Of a stretch of DNA of 27,523 nt, positions 4,563-27,523 are shown one piece after another (the stretch's first letter is position 1; each line of letters opens with the position of its first letter). The stretch is taken from positions 1 to 27,523 of the IMG/VR virus record IMGVR_UViG_3300031841_001120; one strand, given 5' to 3'. Below the pieces are notes generated by a model. It was not told the origin of the DNA. It was given only the letters and a program-made list of their open reading frames with translations, and did no database searches. Position numbers and translations under genes: made by a program. The DNA is from a virus.

Positions 4563-5411
4563 ATGACCAACGAAACTGAAGAGCAGTCCTTCGAGGACGC
4601 ATTCGATGAGCTGGCGGAAGGTAAAACCGCCGAAGAGCAACCCGAACTTGAATTTGAGACCGAAACCGAGGAGGTAGAGGATGTACAGCTACGGGAAGGG
4701 CAAGAAGAAGAAGAAGACGAAGGGCAAGTAGAGGCTGAGCCTCAACCCGAGTTTTCTTTGGAAGAAAGGCTGGAGGAAGCAGAGCGTCAAGCTCAACTCT
4801 GGCAACACAAGTACAACTCTGATTTAGGCAGGCAAAACGCTTATCAGAGGAAAGTTTCTGAATACGAAAAAGAGATTCAGCAACTTAAAAAACAGGCAGA
4901 ACGATCCGAAAGCCCAGATAGCATGACGCCATCTGAGTGGAAGGCGCTACAAGAAGATTACCCCGACATCGCTCAAGGTGTTCAGTCACAGTTTGCCCAG
5001 CTACAAGCTCGGCATCAGGCTGAGATCGAAAGCATTAGGCGTGAACTTCAGCCCATCCAAGCTCAGGCGCAAGAAAGCTATGTGCAGGATCAGTTCAGGA
5101 TTTTAGAGATGGAGCATCCAGACTATCGAGAGATAGCGCAATCGGAGAGCTTCAAATCGTGGGTTCAATATCAGCCCCAGAACATCAGGGATATGATTAC
5201 TAGCCAGCAGGCGGGAGATGCCGCTTATTTGCTACGGACCTACAAGAATGACTTGATGCCCGGTCAACAGGCATCCACAGAATTGAAGTCGCGACGAGAG
5301 AAGCAACTTCGACAAGCTCAGACCGTTCCTCAAAGAGGAGGAAGGTCACGATCTAATATGCCGCCAGAAGATGACTTCGAAGCCGCATTTGATTACTTCG
5401 CCTCTAAGTAG
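4563..5411 (+). CDS. Capsid scaffolding protein
   Basis: Likely the internal scaffold that guides coat assembly and is removed before or during DNA packaging. The 282-residue protein lies between portal and major capsid genes, the standard scaffold position. The first 75 residues are strongly acidic (runs such as EGQEEEEDEGQVEAE). Residues 70-190 are Gln/Glu/Lys-rich coiled coil, and the C-terminus is short and mixed-charge (KSRREKQLRQAQ, then a helix EDDFEAAFDYFASK), as in coat-binding tails of known scaffolds. GGAG at 4553-4556 supports the ATG at 4563; an upstream ATG at 4558 stops after two codons. The call rests on composition, length and gene order rather than on a catalytic motif. Confidence 0.82.
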   Translation: MTNETEEQSFEDAFDELAEGKTAEEQPELEFETETEEVEDVQLREGQEEEEDEGQVEAEPQPEFSLEERLEEAERQAQLWQHKYNSDLGRQNAYQRKVSEYEKEIQQLKKQAERSESPDSMTPSEWKALQEDYPDIAQGVQSQFAQLQARHQAEIESIRRELQPIQAQAQESYVQDQFRILEMEHPDYREIAQSESFKSWVQYQPQNIRDMITSQQAGDAAYLLRTYKNDLMPGQQASTELKSRREKQLRQAQTVPQRGGRSRSNMPPEDDFEAAFDYFASK

Positions 5412-7024: not shown

Positions 7025-7648
7025 ATGACTTTTTTGGAGCTTTGTCAGCGTCTTGTCAGAGAGACAGGTATTGCAGATACCGGCCCATCATCAACAGTCG
7101 GTCAGACTGGCGATATGCGGCGCATTGTTGATTGGACTAACGACGGCTGGCTAAAGATCCAGTCTATGCGGAAAGACTGGGCGTGGATGTGGGCCACTGG
7201 CTCCTCCACGCTCACCGCAAACACCTACCTAGTAACGCTCCCTTCTACCGTAGAAGATATTGAGCGAGTGTCTCTGGGTGAGAATTTTTTGCAGAAGCTA
7301 ACTTACGACGAGTTTGCAGATGCTTACCGTACCGTTGAAGCAGGCGAGCCTACAGCTTGGGCAATCAGGCCAGACGGTCAGCTTGCATTTAACGCAAAGC
7401 CTAGTGCAGATAAGACAGTTACTTACGAGTATTACAGCGTTCCGGTCTCGATGATCGAAAACTTTGATGCGCCCGGTATGCCCGATCAATACCATATGCT
7501 AATTGTCTACTCGGCTCTTCGCGATTATGCCTTGTTTGACGACGCCTTAGAGCTAGAGAAGAAGGCGCTGATTAACTACGAGATGATGCTTGCCGCTCTG
7601 GAGCGAGATCAGCTACCCAAGATTCACGCGCCGGACTGTCTTGTATGA
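7025..7648 (+). CDS. Head-tail adaptor protein
   Basis: Probably the ring that binds below the portal and connects it to the nozzle, the role of gp11-type tubular proteins in T7-like phages and of adaptor proteins in SU10-like phages. The 207-residue protein starts MTFLELCQRLVRETGIADTG, followed by a region around MRRIVDWTNDGWLKIQSMRK; this helical opening is typical of phage adaptor proteins. The middle (residues 60-150) is beta-rich and the C-terminus is a long helix. It starts three bases after the preceding gene and shares ATGA with the following nozzle gene. The call rests on sequence pattern, length and position; the exact subfamily is uncertain. Confidence 0.75.
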   Translation: MTFLELCQRLVRETGIADTGPSSTVGQTGDMRRIVDWTNDGWLKIQSMRKDWAWMWATGSSTLTANTYLVTLPSTVEDIERVSLGENFLQKLTYDEFADAYRTVEAGEPTAWAIRPDGQLAFNAKPSADKTVTYEYYSVPVSMIENFDAPGMPDQYHMLIVYSALRDYALFDDALELEKKALINYEMMLAALERDQLPKIHAPDCLV

Positions 7649-9129
7649 TTACACCCAGTTACTTCCCGCTAATTGGAGGATGGAACATTGAAGCTCCACC
7701 GCTTGCTACTCAGCCGGGTGAAGTCCTTGATGCTACTAATTATGAGTGTCTTATTGGTGGCGGCTATCGTCGTATTTACGGCTATGATTTATATGATGGG
7801 CAGGCTACTGCTTCTCAGTCAGTACCCGGCACGGGCTCTGTCTTGCTTGTTCACATTTACAAGAACGAGCTTTACGCGATTCGCGAAGATGGTGCCGCCG
7901 CTCGACTATACAAGGCCACCACCTCCGGCTGGTCAGAGGTTAATAACGCCTTTACGTGGTCGCTCGGCGGAAACTATAGAGCCGTCAACTACAACTTCTT
8001 CGGGCAAGACGCTCAAGAAGAAATGTATATCGTTAATGGCGTTGATAAGGCAGTCCGTTTTGATGGGACTACACTTACCCAAATAACGACCGGCGTAGGT
8101 ACTGACGACCCTTCCTGCGTTGCTGGATACCGAACACAGTTATTCTTGGGTGTGGAGTCTAGTCTGGTTGCAAGCGAGCCCGGCAACCCCTCTGGATACG
8201 ACCCCGTTCAGAACGCCTTTGAGGTCGCTGTAGGAGACACAATCACGGACCTTATGGCGGCACCAAGCGCATTGATTGTTGGCTCTGAGAACAAGACACA
8301 GCTCCTTTCAGGGGATACAAGCGCTAATTTCCGCTTGGATACGATGACAGAGATCGGCCCTTACCCAAGGACGATGGCAAACATCGGTGGTCAGGTAATT
8401 GGCCTAGATCAGCAGGGTGTTATGAGCCTTACTGCAACTCAAGCATACGGCAACTTCTCGTATGCGCTTTTGAGCCAGAAGATTGCTTCATATATGAGCA
8501 ACTTCCCGTTAGGTTCTTTGGCAGTAATTAGTCGTGCGTCTAGCCAATATCGACTGTATAATGGCCGTCAGGGGCTCTACTTTACCTTCGCGGGGACCGA
8601 GCTAATCGGCGCTATGCGAGTGGCCTATGCTCACTCCGTAGAGTGCGCTTGCGAAGGCTTATTTCCCAACAACGAGCCTGTTTCATTTTTCGGATCTGAT
8701 GATGGCAATGTCTACCAGCTAGAGGTAGGCACGAACTTTGCTGGCCAAGAGATTTACGCTTACCTCGTAACCAGCTTTCACCATCACGGATCTCCATCGC
8801 AATACAAGCGATTCCGCATGATCCAGCCAGACCTATCTGTAGATGGGGACTCAACAACGCTGGCTGTTAGCGGCACCACCGATTACGGCAAGGGACTGTA
8901 CTCAAGAGGCAATACTGGCTCTCTAGGGCAGACCAATGGTGCGCTATGGGATTTTGCGGTATGGGATCAGTTTTACTGGGACTCTGTGTATCACCACGAC
9001 GCCAGAGTCCGCCTGAGTCTAGTAGGAAAGAACCTTGCAATTCTTATGAGTTCAACGTCCGCCACAGACTCTGTTCACACGCTCTATGGCGTTACGGTGC
9101 ATTTTTCTCCAAGGAGACTCGCTAGATGA
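7645..9129 (+). CDS. Tail nozzle / tail tube terminal protein
   Basis: A 494-residue, almost entirely beta-structured protein located between adaptor and fibre, the place of the nozzle (gp12-like in T7, gp10-like in P22). It would form the distal tube through which DNA exits and to which fibres attach. The N-terminus (FPLIGGWNIEAPPLATQPGE, then YECLIGGGYRRIYGYDLYDG) is characteristic of such proteins. It is followed by repeated blade-like segments such as YKNELYAIREDGAAARLYKA and EEMYIVNGVDKAVRFDG, suggesting a propeller-like core. It overlaps its neighbours by ATGA on both sides. The function is inferred from order, size and fold; no catalytic motif is present. Confidence 0.72.
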   Translation: MITPSYFPLIGGWNIEAPPLATQPGEVLDATNYECLIGGGYRRIYGYDLYDGQATASQSVPGTGSVLLVHIYKNELYAIREDGAAARLYKATTSGWSEVNNAFTWSLGGNYRAVNYNFFGQDAQEEMYIVNGVDKAVRFDGTTLTQITTGVGTDDPSCVAGYRTQLFLGVESSLVASEPGNPSGYDPVQNAFEVAVGDTITDLMAAPSALIVGSENKTQLLSGDTSANFRLDTMTEIGPYPRTMANIGGQVIGLDQQGVMSLTATQAYGNFSYALLSQKIASYMSNFPLGSLAVISRASSQYRLYNGRQGLYFTFAGTELIGAMRVAYAHSVECACEGLFPNNEPVSFFGSDDGNVYQLEVGTNFAGQEIYAYLVTSFHHHGSPSQYKRFRMIQPDLSVDGDSTTLAVSGTTDYGKGLYSRGNTGSLGQTNGALWDFAVWDQFYWDSVYHHDARVRLSLVGKNLAILMSSTSATDSVHTLYGVTVHFSPRRLAR

Positions 9130-12100
9130 CAAACCAATATGTACCCGATCTAACTCCGCTTGGCTCTGGAGATCTTGCACGATCGGCTGACGTTAATGAT
9201 CGTTATGAGAATACGGTATCGGGATTCGATAGATTACCTACGCCAAAGGTAGGCGAGCAGGGATTCTCTGCCGCAGTACCCGTAGGCACTCCTGTAAACG
9301 CAGATCACGCAACAACCAAGAACTGGGTTGAGACTGCGATGACTTCGCAGGTCAATATTGCAGAGGGACACGCAGATGACGCAGAAGCGGCCAAACTTGC
9401 GGCCCAGACATCCGAAGCAAACGCTCTGTCCTCCGCTAATACAGCATCGACTCAAGCTGGCGTAGCAACTACCAAGGCAGGTGAGGCGGCTACATCGGCA
9501 AGCAATGCGGCGACAAGCGCAACCAATGCCGCCACATCTGAGAGCAACGCGGCCACTTCAGAAAGCAACGCGGCCACCTCAGCAAGTAACGCATCCACAA
9601 GCGCATCAAGCGCATCTTCTTCGGCAACGGCGGCTCAGACAGCAGAAACCAATGCTGTAGCCGCATACGATTCGTTTGATGATCGTTACCTCGGCCCTAA
9701 ATCGGCTGACCCTAGTACTGATAACGACGGAAATACACTTTTAACTGGTGCGCTGTACTTTGACACCAACAACGGAACAATGAAGGTTTGGGATGGAACC
9801 TCTTGGGATCCCGCATATGTTCCGCCAGATCTTCTTACTCTTGATGAAGTGACCACCAACGGCAACACAACCACTAACGCCGTAACGGTTGGCCAATTTA
9901 CATCAACAAATCCTTCCGTAAACTTCACCAACCTCGGCAACACCACATCGACAACCGATCCTGTATTGATGATTACAGCGGCAGGTCTTGTTCAGGAAAG
10001 ACTCCTTGGTTCTAACGCATTTAACAGCAACACATACGACAACTATCAGGGTTGGCAGTTAAACGGGGGTAGCAGTACAGAAGCTATTGGCAAAAACGAA
10101 ACTGTTACCTTTACAGGCGCCGGGGGTGCAACGGTAACAAACTCCGGTAACACGGTAACAATTAACTCTACTGACACTAACACCACAGACTTCAACGTGT
10201 CGGCAAGTGGCGGCACTGCGGAGAATATCTCTGCTGGCGAGACGGTAGATTTTGCTGGCACTGGCGGCATCTCTGTTTCCCGCACAGGAAACAACTTTAC
10301 GATTGACGGCTCTGCGGCTGGTACAACTGAGTTATCAACCGATACAACGCCTCAGCTCGGCGGTACGCTTGATGCCAATGGCAACACCATTGATATGGGC
10401 GTTAACGTCATTACTGATACTGCGGTAGGCAACTGGAACACAGCCTATAACGACAAGATCACAAGCTCGACTTTTGACATAAACAACGGCAACTTGACTT
10501 TGAATCAGGTCGATGGTGGAACGGTCGTTGTAAACCTCGATGGTCGTTACGGCGCAATCACCGGATCACTTACAACGTCAACTACGTTTGGTGGTGATGT
10601 AACCGGCACCTACAACACTATATCTGTTACCAATGACAGCCACGGTCACTCGTTTGCAAACCTTCTTAACAAGGGATTAGGCACTGGCACTTACACCACA
10701 ACAGGCGCTTACTCCGCACCTGAGCTTATTACAGCGGAAGTTCGAACCAACAACGGCACACAGCTTGTTCTAAGTGGCGGTGATTCTTCTACTCAGGCAA
10801 CAGGCCAGACTGGTGAAAAGGTTTATCTCAACGCAGAAAATGGCATAGAGATTGTTTCCTCGCCAGACAACTGGGCAAGTGGCTGGGCTGGTCGTAAGAC
10901 AGCGACAATCAACGACTCATCAGGCAACTCATCATTGCCCGGCAATCTTGGCTTGACAGGGAATCTTACCGCCGCCGCCATCACGGGCACTGGCGACCTA
11001 GTTGTTGATACAGACACGCTGTTTGTTGACGCATCGACTGATCGGGTTGGCGTGGGAACTACGTCTCCGGGCGTAGATCTAGATATACACAGCGCGGGTG
11101 ACACGGTATTAAGAGTATATACCAGCGGGACTGGAGTGTCAGACGACACCATCATTCGCACACAAATTGCCGGCACTACCGCAAGTAACTACATTTATTT
11201 CGGCGATGCAGATGACATAAATACTGGGCAAATACGCTACGTCCACAGTGACGACAGTATGCGGTTTTATGCTGGCGCAACAACGGAAAAAATTAGAATA
11301 AGCTCCACTAATATTGGCTTTAGAGATGCCGCTGGTGAGATCGCTAGATTTGACAGCGCCAGAAACCTCACCGTCAATGGAATTGGTATCTTCGGGGGCA
11401 CATCTGTAAGCGGCGGAGAAGGCGGCGAGCTTCGCCTTACGATGCCCCCAACGACAAACCTTTCTGGTACTCACGTAACGCTAGACGCGCAGACAAACAG
11501 TGTGCGCTTCTTTGAGTCAGGCGGTACTACCCGAGGGGCTACATTAGACCTTACCGGATGCGCCGCCTCTGCTGGATCAACAATCTGGCACTCAGGCAAC
11601 GACGGTGCGAGTTCAGGTCTCGATGCCGATCTGCTTGATGGTCTTCAATCTGCCACTACCGCAACAGCAAGCACAATTGTAGCTCGTGATGCGAATGGCG
11701 ATACCAATATTAGGTACTGCTATACAAGCTACCTGAATATGAGTCATACCACAGGGACAAGAAACTCTGACACCATATTCTATTCCTCGGATGACAACTT
11801 CCTTCGCAAAAACAATGCTACCGGAATGCGATCTTCCCTCAATGTCCCAACTAGAACTGGAGGGGACGCAAGCGGAACTTGGGGTATTAGCATCACTGGT
11901 AATGCCGCGACTGCGACAAGTGCGACAAGCGCGACAACCGCCACAAGTGCCACAAGCGCGACAACCGCAAGCAGACTTGTCTCAACAACCACAACCACAG
12001 CAACAAACAAAACACTTGCTGACGGTGAGTTTTGTACGGTTACAGCTTCAGGAAGAACTATTACACTGCCTGCTTCACCTACTGCGGGTGACAGGGTTTA

Positions 12101-14337: not shown

Positions 14338-16863
14338 ATGGCGATCCACTATCAACAGCCAAATTTGGAGGAGTTCGATAATCGATCCCGACAAAATCAA
14401 ACAGGCTTACTACAACGATCTCCGGCAATTGCCTTTGGCACTGGAGGCGATGCGGCCCCAGCTCCAAGTGGTATGCCAAGCCCCGCAAAGCCTATGGGCG
14501 CTACTGTTAATCAGCAAGCAAATGCGGCGCAGATGTCAAATATGGCGGCTAAGCCCGGATCAACGCCTGTAGCGACAGCGCAAACTACTCAGGCAAGGTC
14601 TCAGGGCTATGACCCAGCTCAGATTGGCGATGCTACTCAGGCGCAGGTTCAGGAGGCTGAAGCAGTTACTCGCGCAGTACAGAACAATGAGCTATCTCAG
14701 CAACAGCTAGAGAATATGCTTGCCTCTAACTCTCCCTTGATGCGCCGTGCGGCGGCTCAGGGATTGCAGGTAGCGGCATCACGAGGTCTCCTAAACTCCA
14801 GTATGGCGGCAGGCGCGGCACAGGCGGCATTGATTGATGCGGCGGCACCTTTTGCGCTTCAGGACGCTCGCACATTCTCCGACACTGCGGCACAGAACCA
14901 GCAGGCCCAGAATCAGGTTAATCTGGCTAACGCTCAGATGGGCACTGAGACTAACATCTTTAACGCTGGCCAGCAGAACGAGAACCAGCGTATTGATGCG
15001 TCATCACAGAATCGCGCTAGTGAGTTTGGTGCAGACGCTAGAAACCAAGCCTCATTGTTTAACGCAGGCGAAGCAAACCAGACATCTCGCTTCAACGCTG
15101 ATTCTCGTAATCAGGCGACTCAGGCAGATGCAGATCGCTCTCAGGCTCGATTCCTTCAGGATGACTCTCAAGAGTTTGAATCTGGTGAGAGACAGCTTGA
15201 TCGAGATGAGCGCTCAACTGATCGCGATTTTGACGCCGAACAGCGACAGCTTGATCGCGACTTTACCTCTAGTGAGTCAGCACTTGATCGTAACTTCCAG
15301 TCTACCGAAAGGGCGGCTGATAGAGAGCTTACTCGAAGCGAGAGCGCACTGGACCGAATGTCTGCGGCAGAGCTTCAGGATCAACGCATCCAGACTGAGC
15401 TACAGATTCAGGACATTCAAAACAACTTCCAAGGAACCCAAGCAGAGCTGGATCGCTTACAGCAGTTAGAGGTTCAGAAGAACGACATTGACGCAAGGCT
15501 TGAGCTTCAGGAAAACGAGCAAGATTTTCAGTCTACAGAGCGCCAAGCGGATAGAGACTTCCAGTCAAGTGAATCTGCATTGGATCGACTCTCAACTCAA
15601 GAACTTCAAGACGCTCGCATTGCCAATGAGCGCGAGATGCAGGACATCCAGAACAACTTCACTGGAGAGCAGTCACAGCTCGATCGTCTGCAACAGCTTG
15701 AGGTACAGCAGAACGATATTGATGCGCGTCTTGAGATTGAGCGAGAGCGCCAAGAGTTCCAGTCAGGCGAGAACCAAGCAGACCGTGATTTCCAGTCTAG
15801 CGAGCGAGCCCTTGATCGAGATCAGGAGCGCGGCCTATTAGAGACTGAGCTTGACTTCCGTGGCACTCAGGCAGAGCTTGACCGTATGTCTGCCGCAGAG
15901 TTGCAGGATGCCCGTCTCGCTAATGATCGAGAAATGCAGGAAATCCAGAACAACTTCCAAGGAACTCAGGCGGAGCTTGATCGGATTCAACAGCTTGAGA
16001 TGCAGAACAACGACATCAACGCTCGTATTTCACTGCAAGAAAGCGACCAGAGCTTCCGCGCAGACCAGAGCGCACTTGATCGTGAGCAACAGCGCGGACT
16101 CCTTGAAACAGAGCTTGACTTCAGAGCAGGCGAATCTCAAGCGGATAGAGAGTTCCGGTCTCAAGAAGCACAAGAAGATCGTGACTTCCGGGGCGATCAG
16201 GCTCAGCGAGATCGTGACGCGCAGGCTGAATACCAGAGCATACAGAACACGTTTGCGGCGGCGGAAGCACAGCTTAACCGCGATGCCTCTGCGGAGGCTC
16301 AGGCTTCAGCGCAGGCGTTCTCCGAATGGCAACAAACAAACCAGCAAGAATGGTCGGCCATTCAAGCTGATCTTGATCGTCAGTTCCAAAGAGAAAACAT
16401 TGACCAGCAGTCTGCAACGATGATCTTGGGTCAGACAATGACCTCTATCGGCGCGATCTACGCAGATCCAAACCTAACGCCACAGCAGAAGGCTCAGGCC
16501 GTTGCGAACCTTCAGAACCTTGCGACATCAATGCCTGAGCTTCTGGCTAGAATCCAAGATCCTGATTACGACGTTGTTAATCCCCTGCCTATTGACGACG
16601 GAAACGACGACGGCGGAAACGACGACGGCGGCAATGATGATGGCGGTAATGATGATGGCGGCAATGATGATGGCGGAAACGACGACGGTGGTAATGATGA
16701 TGGTGGCGATGATGAGCAGACTTGGACGCCTCCTTCTAATTACGTTGATTATGGAAACGGCAACTACCTAGACCCAGAAACTGGCGACATCTACAACAGT
16801 GACGGCGAGGTTATAACCACGATTCCTACTGACGACCTTCCTGACATTCCGAATCTTCCGTAG
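14338..16863 (+). CDS. Giant hendecad-repeat (rod-like) virion protein
   Basis: An 841-residue protein of unknown family. Residues 1-207 are Gln/Ala-rich with a helical part (LASNSPLMRRAAAQGLQVAA). Residues 208-262 hold five and residues 280-693 hold 37 consecutive 11-residue repeats, interrupted only by a 17-residue linker and one 7-residue insert; the consensus is F-Q-S-x-E-x-x-L-D-R-D. Eleven-residue periodicity predicts one very long, nearly straight alpha-helical coiled coil, about 60-70 nm if continuous. A short globular helix follows (ATMILGQTMTSIGAIYADPN), then seven GGNDD-type repeats (16600-16704) and a tail with YGNGNYLDPETGDIYNSDGE. CGGAG at 14326-14330 supports the start. Position suggests an internal or ejection protein. 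Confidence 0.85.
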   Translation: MAIHYQQPNLEEFDNRSRQNQTGLLQRSPAIAFGTGGDAAPAPSGMPSPAKPMGATVNQQANAAQMSNMAAKPGSTPVATAQTTQARSQGYDPAQIGDATQAQVQEAEAVTRAVQNNELSQQQLENMLASNSPLMRRAAAQGLQVAASRGLLNSSMAAGAAQAALIDAAAPFALQDARTFSDTAAQNQQAQNQVNLANAQMGTETNIFNAGQQNENQRIDASSQNRASEFGADARNQASLFNAGEANQTSRFNADSRNQATQADADRSQARFLQDDSQEFESGERQLDRDERSTDRDFDAEQRQLDRDFTSSESALDRNFQSTERAADRELTRSESALDRMSAAELQDQRIQTELQIQDIQNNFQGTQAELDRLQQLEVQKNDIDARLELQENEQDFQSTERQADRDFQSSESALDRLSTQELQDARIANEREMQDIQNNFTGEQSQLDRLQQLEVQQNDIDARLEIERERQEFQSGENQADRDFQSSERALDRDQERGLLETELDFRGTQAELDRMSAAELQDARLANDREMQEIQNNFQGTQAELDRIQQLEMQNNDINARISLQESDQSFRADQSALDREQQRGLLETELDFRAGESQADREFRSQEAQEDRDFRGDQAQRDRDAQAEYQSIQNTFAAAEAQLNRDASAEAQASAQAFSEWQQTNQQEWSAIQADLDRQFQRENIDQQSATMILGQTMTSIGAIYADPNLTPQQKAQAVANLQNLATSMPELLARIQDPDYDVVNPLPIDDGNDDGGNDDGGNDDGGNDDGGNDDGGNDDGGNDDGGDDEQTWTPPSNYVDYGNGNYLDPETGDIYNSDGEVITTIPTDDLPDIPNLP
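14959..16416 (+). repeat. 33-base coding repeats (hendecads) with 231-base super-repeat
   Basis: About 42 units of 33 bases encode 11-residue repeats. A larger period is visible: blocks beginning SAAELQDQR, STQELQDAR and SAAELQDAR at 15361, 15592 and 15889 are 7 and 9 units apart, and QERGLLETELD recurs as QQRGLLETELD eight units later. This shows growth by block duplication in whole-unit steps. Confidence 0.85.
16600..16704 (+). repeat. 15-base tandem repeat encoding G-(N/D)-D-D-G
   Basis: Seven 15-base units encode Gly-Asn-Asp-Asp-Gly. Units 1, 2 and 6 use GGA-AAC-GAC-GAC; units 3, 4, 5 and 7 use GGC/GGT-AAT-GAT-GAT. The linked codon choices indicate whole-unit duplication or conversion. 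The encoded Asp/Asn/Gly tract may bind calcium or simply be a flexible acidic linker. Confidence 0.9.
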
Positions 16864-19519: not shown

Positions 19520-22500
19520 TGGCCAAGTACGGCGGTTTTTTTGATGAGTTCGACGGGCCATCTAGTAGTAGCGCTTTCGGCGGTTTCTTTGACGAGTTTG
19601 AGACTCAGCCAGAGCCAGAGCCTTTTAAGAGCAATCTTTTCGCCTCATTCGGCATAGGCGCAAATAATCTTCTCGGTTCGGTAGGTAGTCTTTATGGTCT
19701 CGTATCTGGCGATATGGACAATATGGCTACCCGTCAGGCGGAGCGTGGCCGCGAGTTTTACGAGCAGTTTAAGACGGACGAGCTTTTAGAGAAGCAGGCC
19801 GATCTTCAGGCTCGTGTTGACTCTGCTGATGGTGAGCTTGCAAAGGCAGGCGAAGCTGTCTGGGGGACTGTCACCGATCTTGACTTGCTTGGCAATTTTG
19901 TCCTTGAGCAATTGCCAATGGCAGTTCCCGGAGGCGCTGTTGCGAAAGGAGCCTCGCTTCTCACTAAGTCTGCAAGGGTTGGAGCTGGCGCTGGTGTAGT
20001 TGCTGGCGGTGGACTGCAAGCCGGTGATGTGGGCGGTAGCGTCTTTGATGACCTTCAAGCATTGCCGGATGATATTTGGAATCAAAACCCAGAGTTTGTT
20101 GCCCTGTCAGAGCAGGTCGGCAGAGAGGAAGCAAAGAACGAGATAGCTCTCGATGCGTCAAGAAAAGCGGCCAGCATATCTGGAGTTATATCTGGCGTTA
20201 CTGCTGGCGCACTGCCAAACACCATCGAAAGAACCCTAGCCAGAGGCGGCGTTAAAGGCGATGGATTCTTCTCTCGGGCGCTCAAAGGCGTTGGTAGCGA
20301 ATCACTGCAAGAGACGCTTGAAGAAGGCGGCGGTCAGATTGCAGGTAACATCTCCGTACAGCCCATTGACCCAACGCGAGAAACCTTTGAGGGCGTCGGT
20401 CAGGCGGCAGGTCTTGGCGCGTTAGGTGGCGGCATACTAGGCGGCGGTGTAGCTGGCCTATCCTCCCCAATGCAGGCGGCAACAGAGAATGCAGAGGCCG
20501 CTAGAGCAGATGCAGTCGCCAATGGTGGTGATAGCCTTGATGCCGCAACTGCCGCGTCTGGAGGCTTTGCAAACACAGATCTCTCCGCGCTCCGCGAGCG
20601 CATGAACATCGAGGAGCCAGCTCCTTCCACCATAGAACTACCAGAGCTTGCCAACCAGTTCGATCAGGACACGCTACAGCCAACGCCTTTCCAGCCGATT
20701 GTTACGCCAACACCTTTCGAGCCTCAGCAAGAAGTTCCCCAGCTACCCTTTGACCTAACGGAAGAGATTCTTTTTGCCGACAGGGTAAACCAGCCAGAGC
20801 GAGCTACTCGTCTCCGCAACGCACAAGCTATCTATGATCGCGCCCAAGGTACGGCAGATGAGGGATTGAGGGCGCGACTCATCGAGCGAGCCAACGCGAT
20901 TGTCGGCACTGAGATGTCTCAGGAGTTCTTGCGTCAACCCCCTGTTCGAGATCCAAGCGAGCCCTTGGAAGGCCCAGTCATAACCGCAGACACAGACGTT
21001 AATTTCGATGCGTCATACGTTGAGCAAGGCCCAGTGGTTAGGACTCAACGTCGCCCACTTTTAACCCAAGATAACGTCATCTATCAGGAGCCCGTAGAAG
21101 GCGCTCCAGACACCGTTTACCAAGGATCTAGGGGCGATGGCTTTGCCACTAGAAAAGGCGCTGACGCGGCAATGAAGAGCCGTCAGAAGGCAGAGCCGGG
21201 GTTCAACTGGGAAGTATTTCAAGATCCAAACACAGAGCGCTTTGCACTTGCTGGATTTAGACGCGAGCGTAGGCAGGCAAACCCAGAGTCGGTTAATAAC
21301 TTTATCGACCAGACTAACCAAGCGGCACAGCCTGAGCCTGAGATCCGCGACACAACCCAAGGACTGCGTGAGTCGTATGAAGCCGCGTCTGATCCAGAGA
21401 TGGAGTCGCGCTTAATCGAGATTGAGGATCGTATTGAGCAAGCGCAGGAAGTACCGCCACGCTCAACTAGCGCACAGGACGTTGACGTACTAACGGCAAT
21501 CACTCGCCTTGGCGGCATACAGACTGACGAAGCAATTGCTCAAGGTATAGACCCTGAATCATTCAGAGGCTACTCAGGTCTTGGTAGGCCAGTGAGAAGA
21601 AACGGCCTTAGCTTTGATGATATGGGAGAGAAGCTCGCAGAAAACGGTTTCTTCCCGGAGCGTCCCACAGCCAATGAAGTCTTGGATCTTTTCACAACGG
21701 CCATTCAGTCTAACGAGCGCATATTTGTTGGCGAGAGTAGAGCTGATATCCCTAGCCTAGAGGCTGAGCAGGCAGAGATATCGCGGACTCTCATTGAGCT
21801 TCAGGATGAGTTCGGCCCATTAACTGACGACGAAATAGCATTCGTTGACCAATATTATCAGGAGTCTTTTGATGCCAGCTATGGATCGCAAAGAGAACCA
21901 ACCCAAGTCGAATCCGAAGAACGAGATGTTGGATCGTTTGACGAGGGAGCAGGAAGAACAACTTTACAGCCGCCCATTGGAGATCAGACCGGAGCTGAAA
22001 CTCTCAGCGAGAGACAAGCTACAGGTAGTGATGCAGAGATTGGAAGCGTTCAGGAAGACGACGGACTAGATACGTCATTCCAGCGAGGAGCTACTCGAAG
22101 ACCCGTCATTAACGATGAACAGTTCAATTCTGTCCTCGATAGGGTCGTCGGTCAGGACGGGGATGCCCGTAATAGAATAGACGTGCGCTCGTCTTTTGCG
22201 GAACTTCCTGAAGAAATTCAGCAGGCGGCGAGAGATCAAGGCTCCGACGGAAATGACATTAGCGCGGTTTACCATAGAGGGACAGTATACCTCGTCAAGG
22301 GTAAGCTCGCGACAGAATCACAGGTTGAAGAGGCGCTCCTGCACGAGGGTACTCACGGCGGCGTGATGGATATGTACCGCGATCAGGGTGTCAACAAAGC
22401 GCTGAATCGTATGTGGACTGCAATGGGCGGACAGAAGGGCTTCGATAAGCTGGCTCGTGAGCTGGGCATCGAGGAGAATGTGCGCCCTTACATCAGCGGG

Positions 22501-25500: not shown

Positions 25501-27523
25501 TCTCGCCGCGCACTAGGCCGTAGATCGAAAGCTAAGAGCCCAACAGCTCAGGTTATTGCTGACCTTACAGAGAAGACTATCCGCAACAGAAAGAATGAGG
25601 TTGGCCAGACCTTCCTTAATCTTGTTGAGGGCAACCCAGATCCTGATATGTGGGAGGTTTTCACTGACGCCAATCCAGACACCGAAGAGCAGTTCCGTAA
25701 CGGCAGTGTCCGAGAAGGCCCGGTCAATATGGCAGGGTCTGACAAATACTATGCAGTGAAGCGGGATGGCGTTGTTCATTACATCAAGGTCAAGGATCAG
25801 CGGCTACTTAACGCAATGCAGAATGTCGGCCCTGAGCGACTGAGCGCAGTGACTAAGGTTGTTGCGGGAATGACTCGCTTCTTGGCTTCGGTCAATACCT
25901 CGTACAACCCGCAGTTCGTTGTCACCAACTTTGCTCGTGATATTCAGGCGGCGGCTCTTAATTTGGCGGCAGAGGCCACAATGGAGGGCGGCAAGCTAGA
26001 CGGGAATCAAATTGCTGGAAAGGTTGTTGCTGGCACAGTAAAGGCTATCAGGGCGATCAGGTCGTCCAACAAGCAAGATGCAGTTAATGACGACTCAGAT
26101 CCAGAAGCTACTGAATATCGTCGGTACTACCAAGAGTTCTTAAATGACGGCGCTAAGACTGGCTACTTTGACTCTCCCGATGTGGACACAATCGCCGCAG
26201 ATCTGGAGAAGAAGTTAGGCAGGGCTGGCCCCGGCACTAAGAATGAATTGCTGAAGGCAGGCACCAAGATTGCTGAGTTGGTTGAGAAGTACAACAGCGC
26301 AGTAGAAAACGGCGTCCGACTATCGGCTTATATCGAGGCTAGAAAGGCAGGCGTTGATCGTAAGCAGGCCGCATCTCTGGCTAAGAATATGACAGTCAAC
26401 TTTAACCGCAAGGGCGAGATAGGCACTTTCCTTAACTCGCTGTATATGTTCTTCAATGCCGCAGTTCAGGGAACGACTCAGTTCCTGCGAACACTCAGTC
26501 CCCTTCAAGTCAACAGCCAAGGCAACATTCAGGTGCAGAGAAATCTAAACCTAGCCCAGAAAATAGCTGGAGGCATCGTTGCTGGTGGAGCTGGCTTTGC
26601 ATCTCTGATGAGAGAGATGGGCGGTGAGGATGATGACGGCGAAGCCTACTGGGACAAGATACCCGCAGGCATACGCGAGAGAAACTTCATCATTATGAAG
26701 CCCGGATCTGGTGGCGATTATTACAAGCTACCCCTGCCTTACGGTTACAACTTCTTCTGGAATCTTGGCGATTCATTAGAGGGTGTACTCAAGGGCTCAC
26801 AGCGTAGACGAAATAATGTTCTAGGCGATCTGGTTTCCAGCTTCACAACATCGTTCTCTCCATTCAGTTTGCATAGGGCGGATAATGCGGCACAGCAGGT
26901 AGCTCTAACGATCAGCCCAAGCATTGTGTTGCCAGTCACTGAGCTTGCAGTAAACACCAACTACTTTGGCGAGAAGATCTACCCAGAGAACTTCCCCGGC
27001 GGAGCGCAAAAGGCTGATGCCTATCTGTACTGGCCCTCTACAAAGGAGCCCTATGTTCGGGTAGCGAAGTTCTTGAATGACGTTATTGGAGGCGGTTCTG
27101 AGTACCGATCTGGCGAGCTTATGGGTATCTCTACAGACGTTAGCCCAGAGACGCTACAGCAGATAATCGAGTACGCAGGCGGCGGTCTATTGCGAACGGC
27201 AACGGGGACGGGTGACTCTATCTTTAGGCCCGTTACCGGCAGACAGCTAGAGATTGCTAACGTACCGTTTGCTCGGGTGCTTGTCGGTAAGGACCAGTCT
27301 GACTACGGGGACATCGACACCTTCTACGAGAGACGGCAGGAGATCATTAACGCCCGCAAGGAGTACAATGATGCCCCTGACTCTGAGGCCAGAAGAGCAA
27401 GCGACGAGGGCTTTGATGGGATACGCAGGCTCTATCCGCAAGCCAACAATGTCTACAAGAGATTGCGTAGCATCCGCGAGCGCGAGATGAGAATACGAGA
27501 TCGAGACGATCTAAGCCCTGCCG
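19519..27523 (+). CDS. Giant polyvalent / internal virion protein (3' truncated)
   Basis: Open for 2668 codons to the window end without a stop. The start is at TAATG with GGGGG at 19508-19512. In order: two GGFFDEF motifs (5-11, 21-27); an Ala/Gly-rich region with ESLQETLEEGGGQIAGN near 265; linkers; a helical segment near 655-735; a disordered acidic linker (about 780-850) overprinted by another ORF; a zincin-like domain (858-1080) with H942-E943-x-x-H946 and possible third ligand E1012; a region with GHFGE (1420-1424) and IEEMQSDW (1445-1452), continued after a coiled-coil insert by LALKRM near 1620 and GLPMFQR near 1777; a helical region; and an LPD38-like segment (about 2115-2340). Such proteins are thought to be injected with the genome. 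Confidence 0.85.
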   Translation, partial: MAKYGGFFDEFDGPSSSSAFGGFFDEFETQPEPEPFKSNLFASFGIGANNLLGSVGSLYGLVSGDMDNMATRQAERGREFYEQFKTDELLEKQADLQARVDSADGELAKAGEAVWGTVTDLDLLGNFVLEQLPMAVPGGAVAKGASLLTKSARVGAGAGVVAGGGLQAGDVGGSVFDDLQALPDDIWNQNPEFVALSEQVGREEAKNEIALDASRKAASISGVISGVTAGALPNTIERTLARGGVKGDGFFSRALKGVGSESLQETLEEGGGQIAGNISVQPIDPTRETFEGVGQAAGLGALGGGILGGGVAGLSSPMQAATENAEAARADAVANGGDSLDAATAASGGFANTDLSALRERMNIEEPAPSTIELPELANQFDQDTLQPTPFQPIVTPTPFEPQQEVPQLPFDLTEEILFADRVNQPERATRLRNAQAIYDRAQGTADEGLRARLIERANAIVGTEMSQEFLRQPPVRDPSEPLEGPVITADTDVNFDASYVEQGPVVRTQRRPLLTQDNVIYQEPVEGAPDTVYQGSRGDGFATRKGADAAMKSRQKAEPGFNWEVFQDPNTERFALAGFRRERRQANPESVNNFIDQTNQAAQPEPEIRDTTQGLRESYEAASDPEMESRLIEIEDRIEQAQEVPPRSTSAQDVDVLTAITRLGGIQTDEAIAQGIDPESFRGYSGLGRPVRRNGLSFDDMGEKLAENGFFPERPTANEVLDLFTTAIQSNERIFVGESRADIPSLEAEQAEISRTLIELQDEFGPLTDDEIAFVDQYYQESFDASYGSQREPTQVESEERDVGSFDEGAGRTTLQPPIGDQTGAETLSERQATGSDAEIGSVQEDDGLDTSFQRGATRRPVINDEQFNSVLDRVVGQDGDARNRIDVRSSFAELPEEIQQAARDQGSDGNDISAVYHRGTVYLVKGKLATESQVEEALLHEGTHGGVMDMYRDQGVNKALNRMWTAMGGQKGFDKLARELGIEENVRPYISGMKGSSLDQDTRNAVLVNEMLAYTGQQGSKKLQQRTREAIGAIREWLRNNTFLKLSRMRASDISLVAKRARNNFLNNQSNAQEGRPSFIMGERTRAKQTPLKLYSNTEKVIIDQGDKLFKPSKKNPDASVRGDQIFSFLKGKGIKKDEAQYTEIEKFLTEDPSRRFTRDEVIEFLRDEAPELDERFEATTKTGFEIGEKGLEYSEPEVQDSEQYYEHIWDDIQYEIKSGDFEGRAGDVISNFISGNEQEVYDFLSSGVFDEDVTSKAREEYLSKGSRPQAGVYAFVNELGVDTVYPELAAEFESEIDDVAWVTAREDYINSSPYNTVTLLDDLDGVFSAQINGSDDYGWTYDIRTRLTNFNDGPYYDLDEAKVQVQNVLNERGYLDDFIFGDVEFLDYLKDVKEENWDQYREFVTTIDNKWGTYYSGHFGEDALFNVLATDRTNALGNVLMIEEMQSDWQSDIRRAGGPRDQGRIDEGKKELNDIDLESQRILLRISTIEQNTEARLIDPEISKVIGEEFGVSRMDAPGVLDPTPSYNKFLRTARRFFADKIQGNELPPFQTSKLEEAIKKIVDLDPDLDRNLQELAELEVQSREISRVRDDARRRLASAERAPPNVPFTEDRYAELALKRMLITAVEEGKDALMISSAAQLNERWGRFYEQIYDKKHVSTIGKLLGVKPYPVDVQGLDATAAYENALKAAGQVEVKYKDQYSDNNRYTFSAIFPSGSEYLGYEMLDIYTDKGMEAAKKQAEEKLRMMLMQRAGIRGWAAPISDEFKQKVTEEGLPMFQRDSARIYPKRPPEETIADKFIRTFQDKMVGLKRTQQFIEETQERKLDFDEDAYLAEEAFYGKTEEDLRQLEVRLIRPFIELLEKTGISVADLDEYLMARHAPERNRKIAAINDKLPDGGSGMTNAEAAEVIQRVNRSGKLADYNQLANQVYAMTQLTRDLVKAGGLASDEEVSSWESMYENYIPLRGFADDEVDSNGNRIRTGRGFDIRGKESRRALGRRSKAKSPTAQVIADLTEKTIRNRKNEVGQTFLNLVEGNPDPDMWEVFTDANPDTEEQFRNGSVREGPVNMAGSDKYYAVKRDGVVHYIKVKDQRLLNAMQNVGPERLSAVTKVVAGMTRFLASVNTSYNPQFVVTNFARDIQAAALNLAAEATMEGGKLDGNQIAGKVVAGTVKAIRAIRSSNKQDAVNDDSDPEATEYRRYYQEFLNDGAKTGYFDSPDVDTIAADLEKKLGRAGPGTKNELLKAGTKIAELVEKYNSAVENGVRLSAYIEARKAGVDRKQAASLAKNMTVNFNRKGEIGTFLNSLYMFFNAAVQGTTQFLRTLSPLQVNSQGNIQVQRNLNLAQKIAGGIVAGGAGFASLMREMGGEDDDGEAYWDKIPAGIRERNFIIMKPGSGGDYYKLPLPYGYNFFWNLGDSLEGVLKGSQRRRNNVLGDLVSSFTTSFSPFSLHRADNAAQQVALTISPSIVLPVTELAVNTNYFGEKIYPENFPGGAQKADAYLYWPSTKEPYVRVAKFLNDVIGGGSEYRSGELMGISTDVSPETLQQIIEYAGGGLLRTATGTGDSIFRPVTGRQLEIANVPFARVLVGKDQSDYGDIDTFYERRQEIINARKEYNDAPDSEARRASDEGFDGIRRLYPQANNVYKRLRSIREREMRIRDRDDLSPA
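21872..22069 (+). CDS. Candidate 65-residue gene overprinted on the giant gene
   Basis: In the +1-shifted frame relative to the giant gene, ATG 21872 follows AGGAG (21860-21864) by seven bases, an ideal ribosome site, and the frame runs 65 codons to TAG at 22067-22069. The product is charged and helical with a normal-looking composition (EMLDRLTREQEEQLYSRPLE, then IRPELKLSARDKLQVVMQRL). The host frame over the same bases reads as a disordered Asp/Glu/Ser/Gly/Gln linker without hydrophobic core residues. That pairing is what is expected where a real small gene is overprinted on a tolerant linker. No family is recognised. Confidence 0.45.
   Translation: MPAMDRKENQPKSNPKNEMLDRLTREQEEQLYSRPLEIRPELKLSARDKLQVVMQRLEAFRKTTD

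Follow-up and report, generated by a model that had tools for sequence, protein, structure and literature searches.

The question raised by this locus is whether an open reading frame (ORF) of 65 codons that lies out of frame within a giant phage gene encodes a protein and, if it does, how that protein would be made and what it might do. The DNA analyzed, called the window here, is a viral IMG/VR record of 27,523 bases whose late genes all run in one direction and include those for terminase, an SU10-like portal and adaptor, and capsid. Locus L002 comes from a near-identical contig that carries an integrase, so the phage is probably temperate. One product of the window (7645-9129) matches PHROG 5107, which is labelled amidase; its position amid virion genes suggests a structural protein. 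The gene that contains the ORF is a giant multidomain ORF with an LPD38 domain amid virion genes and as such qualifies as LPD38/DarB-like. Its product also matches PHROG 616, and, among cultured phages, those of Vibrio, Burkholderia, and Escherichia encode its nearest relatives, which are DarB-like or LPD-domain proteins. Its main features are as follows.

19519..>27522, plus strand: giant DarB-like polyvalent (LPD38) gene containing the nested ORF; last gene, exceeding the window end
21478..21768, plus strand: conserved main-frame module (amino acids 654-750) just 5' of the nested ORF, found by sequence similarity
22342..22356, plus strand: HEGTH metallopeptidase-like motif in the main-frame domain 3' of the linker, seen in the translation
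26650..27270, plus strand: LPD38 domain (amino acids 2378-2584 of the giant protein), Pfam PF18857, E=2.6e-33

On its motif alone, the HEGTH domain might be a zinc peptidase. Giant proteins of the LPD kind are held to be packaged and injected and contain enzymatic domains (Iyer et al. 2017, PMC5512222), and the DarB-like giant protein gp69 was detected in JC1 virions by mass spectrometry (PMC9144972); that the giant protein of the window is virion-carried and injected is inferred by homology only.

The nested ORF meets the definition of an overprinted gene, as it has its own start and ribosome-binding site, uses a different frame, and lies wholly inside another gene. Its signals are listed below.

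21836..21838, plus strand: nested-frame TAG, 11 codons 5' of the ATG, read from the sequence
21860..21864, plus strand: Shine-Dalgarno (SD) sequence AGGAG, 7 bases 5' of the ATG, in the main-frame codons CAG GAG; identical in the relative L003
21872..22069, plus strand: predicted nested gene (family A) of 65 codons, ATG to TAG (22067-22069), +1 to the giant frame; comparative evidence

A preliminary description of this DNA had pointed to the AGGAG seven bases before the ATG at 21872, to the 65-codon +1 frame behind it, and to a product of helical, charged appearance written over a low-complexity acidic linker, and all of this was borne out. The predicted product (MPAMDRKENQPKSNPKNEMLDRLTREQEEQLYSRPLEIRPELKLSARDKLQVVMQRLEAFRKTTD) is basic, with an isoelectric point of 9.2, against 4.1 for the acidic main-frame segment encoded by the same bases, and AlphaFold2 predicted two helices (residues 15-33 and 46-64) with a pLDDT of 74, with only two sequences as input. 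A strong SD sequence precedes just two of the sense ORFs that start with ATG, lie out of frame within the window's genes, and span 30 codons or more: this one and another of 40 codons. No promoter was found 5' of the nested gene, and folding of the RNA just upstream of its start gave no signal (z=0.01).

Whether the ORF is under selection could be judged against a single divergent relative covering the region, L003, which has 85% nucleotide identity over the giant gene; the window and L002 being identical, family A consists of two independent sequences only. L003 retains the nested start, SD sequence, and stop, has no nested-frame stop, and carries a 12-base insertion within the nested ORF that preserves both frames. 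The two nested products are 91% identical over aligned residues. Main-frame changes at codon positions 1, 2, and 3 number 9, 2, and 4 in the overlap and 224, 124, and 843 in the whole gene, so that the first position accounts for 9/15 of the changes in the overlap versus 19% in the gene (Fisher P = 4e-4) and the third-position rate is reduced relative to the gene (Fisher P = 1e-6). Since main-frame position 1 is nested-frame position 3, this shift is what coding in the nested frame predicts. When 66-codon windows were moved along the giant gene, both the gene-wide minimum of third-position changes (2, versus about 21 typically) and the point where first-position changes most exceed third-position ones fell on the nested ORF. 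When codon changes from the remainder of the giant gene were resampled 100,000 times, no replicate attained the nested-frame identity seen in the real pair (59 codons; simulated mean 39.8, maximum 55), and none attained its third-position suppression. The preliminary description had named unsuppressed synonymous change and frequent nested-frame stops in close relatives as results that would refute the gene; in the one divergent relative available, neither was found.

Other ORFs were examined in the same way. Among other-frame ORFs of at least 40 codons on both strands of the giant gene, no other sense ORF had the same pattern against L003; antisense ORFs with high identity were discounted as evidence for genes, as their third positions are shared with the main frame and their changes are not shifted. 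Two further +1 ORFs, 14837-15469 (210 codons) and 15908-16423 (171 codons), lie without SD sequences inside a repetitive coiled-coil gene (14338-16863) and are probably an effect of repeat composition; no divergent relative covers that region. Positions 20905-21300 of the window also have few third-position changes relative to L003 (9 to 11 per 66 codons, about 21 being typical), and no out-of-frame ORF with a fitting pattern of change was found there. A third such stretch adjoins the nested start.

21790..21871, plus strand: nearly unchanged relative to L003 (one third-position change in 28 codons); unexplained, and not general in families B and C, described below

These stretches bear on the most sceptical explanation, namely, that there is no gene and that the signal arose by chance, from an RNA element, or from a stretch that diverged little or was recombined. 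That family A comprises two lineages only, that a second low-divergence stretch exists at 20905-21300, and that the 80 bases before the ATG are almost unchanged as well all speak for it. Low divergence alone, however, would not shift changes to main-frame position 1, and no RNA fold signal lies just upstream. The explanation is refuted by independent families in other giant genes (B, C, and E), which have the same position pattern at much greater divergence, and we regard it as scarcely tenable. On this comparative evidence, and without expression data, 21872-22069 almost certainly represents a real protein-coding gene.

These other families, a recurrence that the preliminary description had not noticed, came from a survey of 77 LPD38-region loci, in which a pairwise scan made 431 out-of-frame ORF tests on main-frame alignments. 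In this blind scan, the nested ORF of the window ranked first of the 431, and other +1 ORFs were among the top matches. Six families, A to F, cover 32/77 survey loci, many of them redundant, and many LPD38 giant genes have no such nested ORF. The nested ORFs mostly have an SD sequence and an ATG and overlap low-complexity linkers that come immediately behind a conserved domain. Family B has members in 18 viral contigs and one genome of Vreelandella sedimenti (consensus M..EQM..A...HRAA.RLL.QGKS.E.VNQYL..TPL..IK.DN) and family C in 13 contigs (consensus MPINKQS.TWKTLNQLPK.RILQALKNG); AGGAG or a similar sequence precedes the ATG in most members of both, and all true members are nested at +1 in ORFs of more than 1,300 codons. 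A supposed genomic member of family B (L133) was discarded as a chance match inside another protein. Cultured Vibrio phages have a weak, consistent family C homolog (E~1e-5 in a small search with a model lacking Vibrio sequences). Vibrio phages have, 5' of their nested family C gene, a module homologous to amino acids 654-750 of the window's giant protein (35% identity, E~1e-4). Family E comprises four contigs; between two of them, L074 and L075, main-frame changes number 15, 5, and 5 at the three positions, and identity is 0.89 in the nested frame versus 0.80 in the main frame.

The remaining families are less well supported. Family D (two near-identical loci) and family F (three remote loci sharing a '..LPLT...Y..LAY' motif) are leads only; the ORFs of two of the family F loci, L023 and L080, follow a similar main-frame domain. 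Family G, found in the Burkholderia phages BcepMigl, BcepIL02, DC1, CSP3, and JC1, is a +1 ORF of 107 amino acids that follows AAGGAGG within their DarB-like gene; when JC1 is one of the sequences compared, its changes favor position 1 (P~1e-3 and 2e-4).

L023, 7076-7471: family F nested +1 ORF
L080, 5940-6146: family F nested +1 ORF
L084, 1-264: family F nested +1 ORF
L142 (BcepMigl), nucleotides 4771-5092 of the giant gene: family G ORF, unannotated, 107 codons

An enterobacterial +1 ORF (L055, L056, and kin) was rejected because its score was due to local main-frame divergence, third positions still being the most changed. Judged by these patterns, at least four unrelated families of predicted nested +1 genes (A, B, C, and E) exist in giant genes; D, F, and G are probably nested gene families as well, on weaker evidence. 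None of the nested ORFs is annotated in the records fetched, which include those of cultured Vibrio and Burkholderia phages, and it is probable that a class of small phage proteins has so far escaped notice.

Families B and C, at their greater divergence, allowed a second look at selection. The nested product was more conserved than the overlapped linker in 88/90 pairs of family B and 29/33 of family C. Since these comparisons used alignments of the nested products, which favors the nested frame, and since the pairs are not independent, more weight was put on the pattern of change and on the 431-test scan, which used main-frame alignments. Relative to the 200 codons upstream, the main frame changes within the overlaps about half as often at third positions and more often at first positions. 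Family B also has a stand-alone homolog, WP_342632622.1, a protein of 118 amino acids encoded on a conjugative plasmid of Marinobacter sp. SBY-1.

L140 (NZ_CP152381.1), 8959-9315: gene for WP_342632622.1, near a DNA methyltransferase and helicase pair

Residues 17-67 of this protein match the family B profile (55 bits, 45% identity), and a zinc-ribbon/IBR-like tail follows at the C terminus; no giant gene lies beside it in the plasmid stretch fetched. At the level of homology, this stand-alone gene confirms the protein nature of family B. A structure model of family B consists of three helices (pLDDT 89), for which no structural relatives were found at useful significance, and in the phage collection all nested families detected were confined to giant genes.

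For family A itself, searches gave no such support. The preliminary description had proposed that the product might occur elsewhere as a separate phage gene; no match was found among phage proteins or any known family, and nothing usable emerged from Pfam, PHROGs, PADLOC, PDB, the phage and plasmid collections, or genome contigs. The best PDB sequence match (E=0.06) covers a short coiled-coil stretch. Foldseek returned no credible match for family A or B, and no homology was detected between family A and family B or C (hhalign probabilities below 1%) or between B and C. A degenerate DNA pattern for DKLQVVMQ had one match, in an unrelated frame (L099), and was taken as chance. The local, distant relatives L004 and L006 were ruled out as a source of a nested homolog: they lack the upstream module and have none. 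In L006, similarity to the window's giant protein begins at amino acid 835, near the end of the nested ORF.

How would the product be translated? We propose independent initiation at the ORF's own SD sequence and ATG on the late mRNA of the giant gene, which would yield a basic, helical protein of 65 residues from 21872-22069; translation itself is unobserved. Instead, +1 frameshifting could carry ribosomes from the giant frame into the nested one, so that a shortened giant protein would end in 65 alternative residues. In family A, 11 codons free of stops precede the ATG in the nested frame, and the AGGAG lies three bases ahead of a TTT, a spacing that resembles the prfB frameshift stimulator. 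At the locus L091 (4860-5834), an upstream module runs in frame into two family B-like segments, either as a natural fusion or in a decayed gene; this giant gene is apparently broken, which weakens it as a precedent. In family A, the TAG at 21836..21838 confines frameshift entry to the 33 bases before the ATG, and the main frame has neither a stop nor a clearly slippery site. Families B and C have a nested-frame stop 0 to 6 codons (often 0 or 1) before the ATG, with an SD sequence mostly at normal spacing, which supports independent initiation and leaves frameshifting little room. We consider frameshifting very improbable.

To place the nested genes within their hosts, 150 main-frame residues on each side were compared within families. 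The upstream domain was homologous in all comparisons, and the downstream part was often unrelated. Vibrio phages agree at 96 to 99% upstream versus no similarity downstream, and the same held in family E, in most family B pairs, and in part of family C. The nested gene thus tends to travel with the preceding domain, although this linkage could merely reflect recombination breakpoints at linkers.

The nested product may act as a stoichiometry-linked partner of the giant protein's upstream domain, made from the same mRNA, for instance as an assembly or packaging chaperone, a co-packaged cofactor, or an inhibitor. With giant proteins held to be packaged and injected, and one of them found in JC1 virions, we judge such a partner to be the most likely function. 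The assignment remains tentative and short of an even chance, as it is inferred and no physical tie to the giant protein has been shown. Of the two functional suggestions in the preliminary description, an internal-start partner of the giant protein fits best, by inference, and an early or regulatory peptide has no support because the ORF sits in a late virion-protein gene cluster.

Two other roles compete with that of a partner. The product could be a free-standing accessory protein (for host takeover, anti-defense, or lysis timing) that works independently of the giant protein and for which the linker is merely space. Most overprinted proteins of viruses have accessory roles (review PMC8227390), linkers are the cheapest sites for overprinting, and the family B domain stands alone on a plasmid, joined to a zinc-ribbon-like tail and without an adjacent giant gene in the fetched stretch. 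Against this, several unrelated families occupy equivalent sites in genes of one kind and remain joined to the domain before them, and the phage collection yielded no nested family outside giant genes. We judge a free-standing role to be about as likely as that of a partner. The second role is that of an antitoxin or inhibitor that would hold an enzymatic domain of the giant protein inactive inside the cell that makes it, in the manner of RpnS and RpnL. In its favor, enzymatic domains occur in giant polyvalent proteins (PMC5512222), inhibitors encoded as genes within genes have been described (PMC10327210), and every nested family keeps to a single upstream domain. This role seems unlikely, however: RpnS is in frame and the nested ORF is not, the upstream modules have no demonstrated enzyme activity, and toxicity or inhibition data are absent. 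For the explanation as a whole, that is, a real nested +1 gene with independent initiation, belonging to one of several families and having an inferred partner function, we estimate a probability of about 0.8.

Overprinting itself is already known. Like B, E, and K of phiX174 and Rz1 within Rz of lambda, the nested ORF is completely enclosed out of frame, has its own start, and encodes a small, probably accessory product; lambda Rz1 is likewise nested at +1. An embedded Rz1 was also noted for JC1 (PMC9144972). Unlike these cases, the host gene is here a giant virion-borne polyvalent gene, the overlapped sequence is a low-complexity linker, unrelated families recur at equivalent places, and no membrane, lipoprotein, or lysis features were seen in the nested product. 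RpnS is read in the RpnL frame and is identical to the C terminus of RpnL (PMC10327210); the nested ORF resembles it as a small internal-start product that might control a large one, and differs in being at +1 and sharing no sequence with the giant protein. WP_342632622.1 has an N-terminal segment homologous to family B, not detectably to family A of the window, and differs from nested family B in being a stand-alone gene with a zinc-ribbon-like C-terminal part. The containing gene is of the same kind as those for the large polyvalent, LPD38/DarB-like antirestriction proteins, with homologs in Lessievirus and Vibrio phages; the account of these proteins in PMC5512222 does not contain the word 'overlapping', and no description of a nested out-of-frame gene was found in it. 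The recurrence of unrelated nested +1 genes over giant-gene linkers was not found in the literature searched, of which coverage was partial, or in the annotations fetched.

It is conceivable, if still short of probable, that giant genes are modular, with each cassette consisting of a main-frame domain and a linker in which a nested +1 gene encodes a small partner specific to that domain, that whole cassettes recombine, and that unrelated partners arose repeatedly by the same route. Nested out-of-frame genes in tailed phages have hitherto been mostly single cases, and the predicted families described here form a recurrent, unannotated class, in containing genes of 8 to 14 kb that occur in cultured phages and many prophages. 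The low-complexity linkers after conserved domains are thus a place to look for hidden proteins. The nested genes and their giant genes also offer natural pairs for studies of overprinting, with the stand-alone homolog as a reference, and the nested products are candidates for partners or regulators of the poorly understood injected antirestriction proteins.
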